From Hydrogenophilus sp. (GTDB lineage Bacteria; Pseudomonadota; Gammaproteobacteria; Burkholderiales; Thiobacillaceae): a stretch of 50,546 nucleotides of DNA. Below are positions 3,746 through 50,306 of the stretch, piece after piece (the first letter of the stretch is position 1; every line of letters starts with the position of its first letter). The position numbers were made by a program, and so were the translations under genes. The stretch covers positions 71,481 through 122,026 of the forward strand of contig JAIMKU010000001.1 of NCBI GenBank assembly GCA_020692235.1, given 5' to 3'. A model generated the notes under the pieces. That model saw only the letters and a program-made list of their open reading frames with translations, did not search any database and was not told the origin of the DNA.

Positions 3746-3964
3746 TCACGGCACCGGGTCATGCCCGCCAGGGTGATAAGGATGGCAGCGACCGATGCGC
3801 CGGATCGCCAGCCAACCGCCCTTCAAGGCGCCGTATCGAACCACGGCCTGCCGGGCATATTCCGAGCAGGTTGGGGTGAAACGGCACTGACTGCCAAAGT
3901 AAGGCGACAAGGCGATTTGGTACAGACGGATCGCCCCGACCAGCAGTCGTTGCAGAGGGTTCAT
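3746..3964 (-). CDS. yidD: YidD, membrane protein insertion efficiency factor
   Basis: This 72-residue protein has the YidD/DUF37 signatures [27 protein letters not shown] and [14 protein letters not shown]. YidD is a small membrane-associated protein that helps the YidC insertase. It usually sits between rnpA and yidC. Here it stands apart, directly upstream of the Fur-family gene, with which it probably shares a transcript. Confidence 0.93.
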
Positions 3965-5459: not shown

Positions 5460-6809
5460 ATGCACATCCATATACTCGGCATCTGCGGCACCTTCATGGG
5501 CGGTATCGCGGTCATCGCCAAACAGGCCGGCCACCAGGTCACCGGCTGCGACGCCCAGGTCTATCCGCCCATGAGCACGCAACTGGAGGCCCAGGGCATT
5601 GCCCTGATCGAGGGCTTCGGCGCGGAGCAGGCCGCAATCGGCGCCGACGTATTCGTGATTGGCAACGTGGTCAGCCGGGGCAAACAGCCTTTGATGGAAG
5701 AGATACTCAATCGCGGCTTGCCCTATATCTCCGGCCCGCAATGGCTGTACGAGAAGGTGTTGCGGGACAAATGGGTGCTGGCGGTGGCCGGCACCCACGG
5801 CAAGACCACCACCTCGGCCATGCTGGCCTGGATACTGGAGGACGCCAAGCTGAATCCCAGCTATCTGGTCGGCGGCGTGCCGCTGAACTTTGCCGTCTCG
5901 GCCCGGCTGACCGACTCGCCCTTCTTCGTCATCGAGGCCGACGAGTACGACACCGCCTTCTTCGACAAGCGCTCCAAGTTCGTTCATTACCGGCCGCGCA
6001 CGGCGATCCTGAACAACCTGGAATATGACCACGCCGACATCTTCCCCGACCTCGCCGCCATCGAGACCCAGTTCCATCACCTGGTCCGTACCGTGCCGGG
6101 CAATGGTCTGGTGGTGGCCAACGGCGGCGACCACAACATCCTGCGCGTGCTTGGCCGTGGCTGCTGGAGCGGCGTCGAGTATTTCGCTGGACCGGGCTTC
6201 GGCTGGAAGGCCAGGGCCATCGATGCGGCGAGCTTCGAGGTAACGCTGGACGACCGGCCGGTTGGTCGCGTGACCTGGGAACTGGTCGGCGAGCACAACC
6301 GCCATAACGCGCTGGCGGCCATCGCCGCCGCCCGCCATGTCGGGGTGCCGCCGCTGGCCGCCATCGATGCGCTGTCCCGGTTCAAGAACGTCAGGCGCAG
6401 GCTGGAGCTGCGCGGCACGGTCGCCGGCATCACCGTCTACGACGACTTCGCCCATCACCCGACCGCCATCGCCACCACCCTGGCCGGGCTGCGCTCGCGG
6501 GTCGGCGCGGCGCGCATCCTGGCGGTGCTGGAGCCGCGCTCCAACACCATGAAACTGGGCACGCTGAAGGACCAACTGGCCGACAGCCTGAAGGACGCGC
6601 AGCAGGTGTTTTGCTATGCCAGGGACCTGGGCTGGGACGCCGCCGATGCGCTGCGGCCGTTGTCCGAGCGGGCGGCGGTGTACGACGACCTCGATGCCCT
6701 GGTCGAGGCCGTGGCCGGCGCGGCCCGGCCCGGCGACCAGATACTGGTGATGAGCAACGGCGGCTTCGGTGGCATCCACGCCAAGCTGCTGGCGCGGCTG
6801 GCCCGATGA
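5460..6809 (+). CDS. mpl: Mpl, murein peptide ligase
   Basis: This 449-residue cytoplasmic Mur ligase joins recycled tripeptide (L-Ala-gamma-D-Glu-mDAP) to UDP-MurNAc in peptidoglycan recycling. The start MHIHILGICGTFMGG and the central ATP loop AGTHGKTTTSAMLAW are diagnostic, with EADEYDTAFFDKRSKF and HNRHNALAAIAAARH as Mpl-type motifs. The Mur ligase C-terminal region contains YDDFAHHPTAI. The stop overlaps the start of mlaE as ATGA, so mpl begins the lipid-transport operon. Confidence 0.96.
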   Translation: MHIHILGICGTFMGGIAVIAKQAGHQVTGCDAQVYPPMSTQLEAQGIALIEGFGAEQAAIGADVFVIGNVVSRGKQPLMEEILNRGLPYISGPQWLYEKVLRDKWVLAVAGTHGKTTTSAMLAWILEDAKLNPSYLVGGVPLNFAVSARLTDSPFFVIEADEYDTAFFDKRSKFVHYRPRTAILNNLEYDHADIFPDLAAIETQFHHLVRTVPGNGLVVANGGDHNILRVLGRGCWSGVEYFAGPGFGWKARAIDAASFEVTLDDRPVGRVTWELVGEHNRHNALAAIAAARHVGVPPLAAIDALSRFKNVRRRLELRGTVAGITVYDDFAHHPTAIATTLAGLRSRVGAARILAVLEPRSNTMKLGTLKDQLADSLKDAQQVFCYARDLGWDAADALRPLSERAAVYDDLDALVEAVAGAARPGDQILVMSNGGFGGIHAKLLARLAR

Positions 6810-48430: not shown

Positions 48431-48865
48431 ATGAAAAAGATACAACAAGGTTTCACCCTCATCGAACTGATGATCGTCGTGGCTATCATCGGTATCCTGG
48501 CTGCGGTCGCGTTGCCGGCGTACAAGGACTACACGACTCGAGCAAAGGTATCTGAAGTCGTTCTCGCCGCTTCGGGCTTGCGGACATCGATTTCAGAGGC
48601 CTATCAGACGCTTGGCCGTATGCCGACTAAGGCTGAACTGCCGACTTCGGGCCAAGTATCGAAATATGTTGCCAGCGTGGTGTATACAAGAGCCGGCCCC
48701 ACGGTGGGTTTGAGTACCGCAACGGCTCAAGGATTTAATGATGGGGCGATCGACGGCAAAACCATTGTGCTGATAGGCACGGCCAACGTCGCCACGGGTG
48801 TCGTGGACTGGGTATGCAATGGCACCATCCCTTTGCAATACAAGCCTACCAACTGCCGCCATTAA
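48431..48865 (+). CDS. pilA: Type IV major pilin (PilA-like)
   Basis: The 144-residue prepilin has a six-residue basic leader MKKIQQ, then the PilD cleavage site [18 protein letters not shown] with Glu5, and the conserved [18 protein letters not shown]-terminal disulfide loop is likely between the two Cys in [16 protein letters not shown]. It builds type IV pili. It has its own sigma-54 promoter and strong terminator, so it is monocistronic. Confidence 0.95.
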
Positions 48866-49041: not shown

Positions 49042-49318
49042 TTGAAATTTGCTCACGCCTTGGCAGCCGGTCTGCTATTTGTCCTGCTGTTGCTGACCGG
49101 AGCAATCTATTGGTCTGGTCTGTCAGGTGGTTTCGCTTTCGACGACCACACAAACATTGTCGATAACGCCGCGCTGGAGCTATTCGACGGCTCGTTTTCC
49201 AGCCTTATCGATGCCAGTTCAACGGGTACCGCCAGCCCACTGGGGCGCCCCCTCAGCATGGCAAGCTTCGCCATCGACCGTTATTTCTGGGGATACCAGC
49301 CTTTCTATTTCAAGTTGG
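49042..49318 (+). pseudogene. Membrane glycosyltransferase/TPR-type protein, N-terminal fragment
   Basis: From TTG 49042 with AGGTGA upstream, the frame encodes a hydrophobic start (ALAAGLLFVLLLLTGAIYWSG) and the pattern FAFDDHTNIVDN, GRPLSMASFAIDRYFWGYQPF. This resembles the first periplasmic loop of GT-C/TMTC or pilin-glycosylation proteins. Homology ends at FYFKLVN, where a vapB-type fragment begins. It might once have modified the neighbouring pilin; this is inference. Confidence 0.65.
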
Positions 49319-49408
49319 TCAATCCCCAAGACCTCCATCAAGGAACTACGCGGCATCGCCCGTGGCGCGAATCCCGCGAAATACCGTGACCGGAAAGATC
49401 GCGTCTGA
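49319..49408 (+). pseudogene. AbrB/VapB-type antitoxin, C-terminal fragment
   Basis: The frame ending at TGA 49406-49408 reads SIPKTSIKELRGIARGANPA and on to RDRKDRV, the toxin-binding tail of AbrB-type VapB antitoxins. The DNA-binding N-terminal half is missing. Its stop overlaps the vapC start as in functional vapBC operons. Confidence 0.65.
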
Positions 49409-49512
49409 TGTTTTTGGTTGATACCTGCGGCTGGATCGAATGGATGACCGATGCGCCGTTGTCGAACGGGTTTGAACAGTTCTATTACAATCTATCCATA
49501 GCTATTCTCTAA
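49408..49512 (+). pseudogene. VapC PIN-domain toxin, N-terminal fragment
   Basis: From ATG 49408 the frame reads MFLVDTCGWIEWMTDAP, then LSNGFEQF, the first strand and the first catalytic Asp of a PIN-domain RNase, and then leaves homology at about 49485 and stops at TAA 49510. The IS607-type left end lies here, so the toxin was cut by that insertion. Confidence 0.7.
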
Positions 49513-49522
49513 TATATACATT

Positions 49523-49963
49523 ATGGAGAGAATCGTAAGCATAGGCGAGGCATCCGAGGCGCTGGGCGTGTCAATCACGACCCTGCGCCGCTGGGAAGCG
49601 GCGGGCAAACTGGTGGCTGAGCACACGGCGGGCGGTCATCGTCGCTACGATCTGGGCAAGCTGCGACCGGAGATGTTCCGCGCCGAAGACGCGGCCAGTC
49701 GCCAGACTATCGCCTATGCTCGGGTGTCGAGCCAGGACCAGAAGCTGCTCGACGAATTGCCGCTGTCGGTGCGTGAGTGGGTGTGTCCGGTCTGTGGCAG
49801 CACCCACGACCGCGACGTGAACGCGGCGATCAACCTGAAGAACATGGCCGTGAGTTCCACGGTCGCCGCCTGTGGAGAGGAAGGCGCTGGCCTTCGTCGC
49901 AAGACGAAGACGAAACCGGCCTCGGCGAAGCAGGAAGTCAGCGGCAGGTTTGCTCAGCGATGA
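49523..49963 (+). mobile_element. IS607 deletion derivative encoding a TnpA-TnpB chimera
   Basis: One 146-residue frame joins two different proteins. Residues 1-74 are the IS607 serine transposase start: MerR-type helix-turn-helix [30 protein letters not shown], and the catalytic-Ser segment [12 protein letters not shown]. Residues 75-146 are the end of Tnp[14 protein letters not shown] (one half of the zinc finger), the RuvC-III segment [14 protein letters not shown] and a Lys-rich tail. The middle of the element is deleted in frame. Neither enzyme can work, but DNA binding could remain. The TnpB 3' end is where guide (omega/re) RNAs are encoded in related elements. Confidence 0.85.
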
Positions 49964-49996
49964 GCGGATTTGCATGGGTCTGACGGAACGGCTACA

Positions 49997-50023
49997 TTAT
50001 CACTTGGTATCACCAAGTGATAA
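49997..50023. promoter_or_regulatory. Perfect palindromic operator of the copG-parE pair
   Basis: TTATCACTTGGT-atc-ACCAAGTGATAA has perfect 12-bp arms and ends 10 bases before the antitoxin ATG. Ribbon-helix-helix antitoxins autorepress at such sites. It would also block the ribosome site region if bound. Confidence 0.8.
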
Positions 50024-50033
50024 GAGGTTCACT

Positions 50034-50306
50034 ATGGCAACGTCTCTCAAGATCGACGACACTCTGAAAAGCCGTGTCCATCACCTCGCAAGCCAGCGCC
50101 GCCGCTCGCCGCACTGGCTCATGCTCGAAGCCATCCAGCAGTACGTCGAGCGAGAAGAATCCCGCGAGAGCTTCAAGCAGGAAGCCTTGGCCTCCTGGGC
50201 GGCCTACAAGGAAACCGGCCGGCACCTGACCGGCCAGGAAGTGCGCGCCTGGTTGAGCACTTGGGGCACCGATGACGAAAAGGCGGTGCCTGAGTGCCAC
50301 GAGTAA
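50034..50306 (+). CDS. CopG/ParD-type antitoxin
   Basis: The 90-residue protein starts MATSLKIDDTLKSRVHHLASQRRRSPHWLML, a ribbon-helix-helix, followed by the helical tail AIQQYVEREESRESFKQEALASW that binds toxin. I chose ATG 50034; the frame is open upstream into the IS607 remnant. It overlaps the toxin gene by 13 bases. Confidence 0.9.
   Translation: MATSLKIDDTLKSRVHHLASQRRRSPHWLMLEAIQQYVEREESRESFKQEALASWAAYKETGRHLTGQEVRAWLSTWGTDDEKAVPECHE

Follow-up and report, generated by a model that had tools for sequence, protein, structure and literature searches.

The in-frame fusion of a TnpA start to a TnpB end that was found in the window (the whole stretch of 50,546 nucleotides of Hydrogenophilus sp. 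DNA that was analysed) is considered here to be the non-autonomous relic that internal deletion has left of an IS607-family insertion sequence, a reading to which we give a probability of about 87%. The relic most likely does nothing in its present host, and the 146-aa protein predicted from it is in all likelihood a by-product without function. Evidence for this reading comes from the single copy of the relic, from a genome that holds neither another TnpB nor a serine recombinase, from a junction seen, among the genomes sampled, in its own genome only, and from flanks that are broken or mobile. The preservation of the sequence would then reflect a recent origin together with a guide-RNA constraint inherited from the parent element. 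Coordinates of the features are collected in Table 1.

Table 1. Features of the IS607 relic and of its flanks (positions in the window)
Feature	Coordinates	Strand	Evidence
vapC-like toxin gene, 5' fragment (MFLVDTCGWIEWMTDAPLSN), left flank	49408..49467	+	matches intact vapBC in L122/L121
IS607 left end (GGGTTTGAACAG...)	49468..49522	+	aligned to L035/L036/L037/L040/L041 from ~position 3948 on; GG at boundary; conserved in intact relatives
Chimeric ORF, TnpA N-terminus/TnpB C-terminus, 146 aa	49523..49963	+	Pfam, NCBIfam, protein alignment
TnpA-derived part: MerR-like DNA-binding domain and first strand of serine recombinase domain	49523..49744	+	84-85% aa identity to TnpA 1-74 of L034-L038
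Junction patch ACCAGAAGCTGCTCGACG	49737..49754	+	from tnpA 3' end (KNQKLLDG in relatives); 18/18 match to L035 4575-4592
TnpB-derived C-terminal part: second CxxC of zinc ribbon, RuvC-III DRDVNAA motif, C-terminal tail	49747..49963	+	84.5% aa identity to final 71 residues of L035/L036 TnpB
Guide-RNA (omega/reRNA) scaffold region	49843..49991	+	RAGATH-18-like core 49869-49936; Rfam RF03064 and covariation
IS607 right end (...GTCTGACGGAACGG)	49943..49991	+	aligned to right ends of L035, L036, L037, L075, L067
Would-be guide in the flank of the right end, equal to parD operator/promoter sequence	49992..50011	+	putative, by analogy with the known IS607 guide-RNA layout (PMC11061315)
parD-like antitoxin gene, right flank	50035..50306	+	RHH_1 Pfam match; parDE DNA 83-87% identical to G410, G437, G129

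Composition and extent of the fused element

The open reading frame joins residues 1-74 of an IS607 TnpA, which are MerR-like, to the final 71 of the ~400 residues of a TnpB. Pfam matches, both far from chance level, were obtained with MerR over residues 6-42 (E 1.7e-13) and with Cas12f1-like_TNB, the TnpB zinc/RuvC-III domain, over residues 81-105 (E 7.6e-9), and NCBIfam matches with the IS607 transposase over residues 9-74 (model 2-68 of 187) and with IS607_TnpB over residues 77-138 (model 361-424 of 431). Since the TnpA and TnpB families are neighbours in one element, the fusion is most simply derived from a single IS607. Together with separate DNA alignments of the left part (77-79% identity) and of the right part (86%) to the intact elements L035 and L036, these matches confirm the first-pass annotation, in which the ORF was described as an in-frame TnpA-TnpB chimera from an IS607 element.

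The domain make-up proposed at that stage, a MerR-like TnpA start joined to the RuvC-III/zinc part of TnpB, is right in outline, but the zinc part consists of just one (the second) of the two zinc-ribbon CxxC pairs, next to DRDVNAA, and a third piece at the junction had been overlooked. On the TnpA side the whole HTH is retained, followed by the YARVSS strand as the sole remnant of the recombinase domain. The supposed loss of the catalytic parts is borne out: the catalytic core of TnpA is deleted, as is almost the whole of TnpB, and helix E and half of the zinc ribbon are missing as well. The HTH is complete and close to that of intact TnpA, and deviations at conserved TnpA positions (2/39) are within the range seen in intact relatives. 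The ORF is open and bears no obvious decay, which counts against the relic reading, although a young scar predicts the same; selection is compatible with it.

Alignment to the intact elements L035, L036 and L037 revealed that both element ends are kept, the left at ~49468 and the right at 49991, with GG at both boundaries. The span first reported (49490-49990) thus placed the element correctly and its true extent, 49468-49991, is wider. Insertion of IS607 is known to occur at GG without target duplication (PMC6188088), and the boundaries of the relic are in line with this; the flanks on its two sides derive from different genes (a vapC fragment and a parD promoter).

The nearest intact relatives of the relic are L035, from Extensimonas perlucida, and L036, from a Burkholderiales MAG. 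With IS607-family elements, which comprise a TnpA serine transposase and a TnpB, it shares the ends (among them the left end, located ahead of tnpA in intact elements), the gene order, the TnpA HTH, the TnpB C-terminus and the 3' guide-RNA scaffold. In contrast to them, it measures 524 bp, as against 1,904 bp in L035 (~1,904 bp in intact relatives), ~1.38 kb being absent between its left and right parts, and the distance from the tnpA start to the tnpB end is 437 nt instead of ~1.8 kb. It holds neither the complete TnpA gene of an autonomous IS607 nor a complete TnpB, and is incapable of autonomy. Other shortened IS607 loci were encountered in L098 and L139, where the tnpA start and tnpB end are 1354 and 1474 nt apart (vs ~1800) and the fusion is not the same; with these as further cases, loss of part of the interior may be recurrent in the IS607 family.

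Tripartite junction and proposed route of deletion

The junction is made of the TnpA N-terminal part, a small patch of the tnpA 3' end (KLLD) and the TnpB C-terminal part. Where relatives read DQK-DDLERQ at the tnpA side of the junction, the chimera reads KLLDEL, and its additional L is explained by the KNQKLLDG of the tnpA 3' end. When the deleted region was codon-shuffled 2,000 times, no match to the 18-mer patch exceeded 13, compared with 18 in the real sequence. Two 8-nt microhomologies overlap the patch: ACCAGAAG (49737-49744), its first 8 nt, identical to the end of the tnpA part that is kept, and GCTCGACG (49747-49754), its last 8 nt, which recur in tnpB of relatives such as L051.

We infer that this junction is best accounted for by either two joins at microhomologies or a single template switch, in a reconstruction made from relatives at 77-86% identity, the immediate parent not having been found. 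One microhomology-guided deletion would have run from ACCAGAAG to ACCAGAAG within tnpA and another from GCTCGACG in tnpA to GCTCGACG in tnpB; alternatively, one template-switching event would lead to the same junction. Measured on L035, ~360 nt were lost inside tnpA, and a second loss of ~1,022 nt extends from the end of tnpA into tnpB; this second length is not a multiple of three because tnpA and tnpB lie in different frames. The codon phase of each microhomology is identical in both its partners, so that the open frame is kept without need of selection, and the reading frame would have survived through a coincidence of repeats. The internal deletion with a preserved frame that had been postulated from the first reading is thus upheld, both by the ~1.38 kb gap relative to intact relatives and by the phase-matched repeats. 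A fusion of TnpA and TnpB that looks designed can accordingly arise from two codon-phase-matched microhomologies without selection, which calls for caution in scans for domesticated TnpB proteins: an in-frame fusion alone can be selection-free.

The 9-nt repeat GACGATCTG, common to tnpA (KDDL) and tnpB (KLDDL) in L035, was also considered as the site of one single deletion; this was rejected, as the KLLDEL of the chimera is unlike such a join.

The missing immediate parent counts against the relic reading, as does a run of N near the locus, which, in a fragmented scaffold, leaves a misassembly possible. An artefactual junction between two pieces of a normal IS607 would agree with this fragmentation and with the frequent breakage of assemblies at IS elements, but it is highly improbable: the sequence is contiguous and free of N across the junction, where microhomology and a third patch are present, and the assembly holds no intact copy that could have been collapsed.

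Guide-RNA scaffold, host genome and possible functions

The suggestion that a guide RNA is retained at the 3' end was borne out at sequence level, the scaffold structure being intact, with 25/25 of the covarying pairs of its relatives kept in the relic copy. The Rfam search at the gathering cut-off gave no match, and the RAGATH-18-like core surfaced only in a relaxed search, in which RF03064 (RAGATH-18) was matched over the full model length with 24.9 bits, under the gathering score of 44.9. Among 42 aligned sequences, 97.6% of cells were paired and 109 cells were changed on both sides, with a covariation score of 0.342 (shuffles 0.131; slid controls <=0.077). RAGATH-18-derived RNAs are the guide RNAs (reRNA) of IS607 TnpB (PMC11061315), and the relic resembles them by its position at the TnpB 3' end, by the conserved CCUGUGGAG...GAAGCAGGAA closing stem and by a covarying hairpin; it differs from them in that its scaffold is below the Rfam gathering cut-off, overlaps TnpB coding sequence and stands in a genome without a TnpB partner. 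The scaffold thus appears intact in sequence, yet no TnpB remains in the genome to be guided; in a relic formed by deletion, the scaffold of a guide RNA can thus persist after its nuclease is lost.

A strongly covarying RAGATH-18-like scaffold that overlaps the TnpB 3' coding end was also observed in other proteobacterial IS607 (L035 at 5703-5851, L036, L045, L051 and others). None of the six IS607 loci scanned reached the Rfam gathering score for it; the Rfam model may miss the proteobacterial IS607 scaffold group.

Apart from one copy of the relic, the genome (1.8 Mb, 97% complete) contains neither a TnpB nor a serine recombinase nor a sibling IS607 copy. As no IS607 transposase is present, the relic is most likely immobile in this host. 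It is very unlikely that it instead represents a mobile miniature element (MITE-like), with its ends and guide RNA kept and moved in trans by a full IS607: both ends, the terminal GG and the fold of the scaffold are as expected for such an element, but the genome holds one copy and no transposase, and the junction has no copies elsewhere in the sequences searched. In IS1535, the footprints at the left end reach inward by ~70-84 bp (PMC6188088); by analogy, the corresponding span of the relic would reach into the ORF, and transposition competence is possible.

The search for the same fusion in the other genomes sampled gave none, which is one of the outcomes named beforehand as pointing to a simple deletion scar. 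No further listed match spanned the fusion in 399 genomes of the order; the two parts were nowhere joined in the 117 genomes of the family apart from its own, with 6 further members of the genus among them; and the junction pattern was absent from 368 other genomes of the class and 398 others of the phylum (369 and 399 with the own genome, the samples partly overlapping). Further strains of its own species are not among these samples. A scan of GTDB contigs and searches of plasmids and IMG/VR yielded TnpA or TnpB relatives and no fusion among the loci fetched, none of which had both parts in one ORF. Where tblastn rows gave the appearance of uninterrupted coverage of residues 1-104 or 1-123, the loci fetched proved to have an intact TnpA with a chance extension, and ten IMG/VR matches to the junction pattern were unrelated proteins. 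In the open-library literature, no TnpA-TnpB fusion of such kind was found described.

The first-pass annotation had further proposed that the product could bind element ends or guide RNA and act as a dominant regulator of sibling elements. An expressed fusion whose HTH sits on IS607 ends and blocks the transposition of incoming elements would be consistent with the complete MerR-like HTH, near that of intact TnpA, and with the left end retained ahead of tnpA. This dominant-negative role nevertheless has a very low probability, given that there is no sibling IS607 in the genome, and so nothing there for the fusion to regulate, no related fusion in the other genomes searched, neither helix E nor the catalytic dimer core in the fusion, and no sigma-70-like site on the + strand in a simple promoter scan of 49300-50300. 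In IS1535, helix E is required for efficient cooperative end binding; its removal alone renders the assembly of the paired-end complex defective, although the right end can still be bound in a simpler complex (PMC6188088). The HTH of the fusion may bind DNA weakly. Guide-RNA binding by the product is unlikely, since nearly all of TnpB is lost.

Nor was any positive evidence obtained for the fusion as a first step toward domestication, the in-frame join following from the phase-matched microhomologies. TldRs are nuclease-dead TnpB regulators, with an inactivated RuvC, in which the binding of guide RNA and of DNA is preserved (PMC13418256). The relic resembles them by its TnpB origin and by the adjacent guide-RNA scaffold. 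Unlike the near-full-length TnpB of TldRs, almost the whole TnpB is deleted here (only the final 71 residues being left). TldRs also recur across genomes beside a gene that does not belong to a transposon, whereas the fusion was not found a second time in the genomes searched. A combined scheme, in which the fusion is expressed and its HTH binds IS607 ends against incoming elements while the orphan guide RNA is loaded by an incoming TnpB and directs that TnpB to the target sequence of the relic, is extremely unlikely; if true, the 146-aa fusion would protect the cell against incoming IS607.

Flanking mobile-element remains

The deletion relic stands in a locus that is a stack of mobile-element remains. 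Its left flank consists of the initial 20 codons of a vapC-like gene, with a fragment of vapB ahead of them; a family member (L122) has vapBC intact. In the right flank, parD is followed by parE, which starts at 50294, has a ParE_toxin Pfam match and runs into a scaffold gap, the assembly being fragmented and scaffolded with the run of N just after the window. In two of the three family members with similar parDE (G410 and G437), a TTGACG-like -35 is located upstream of parD, where the right end of the relic now stands; from this comparison, insertion of the IS appears to have separated the -35 of parD from its -10.

About 100 nt past parE lies a terminal inverted repeat of the Tn3 family (TCCGTTTTCTGAGGCGACCCC), followed by the 3' part of vapC. 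No partner end was found in the window or in the following 8 kb, so that a decayed transposon is likely; transposons of this family carry toxin-antitoxin passengers, parDE included (PMC7157771). The repeat is Tn21-like and was located at ~7145-7172 of L002, just past the window end and beside parDE. The vapC-like PIN toxin gene is split (49408-49467 and L002 7172-7530) by an insert with the IS607 relic, parDE and this inverted repeat. Further to the left, the ORF at 49042-49389, which gave no match in the Pfam search and comes after a pilin gene (48431-48865), has a membrane-protein-like start and is seemingly cut near 49330, where vapB-like sequence starts.
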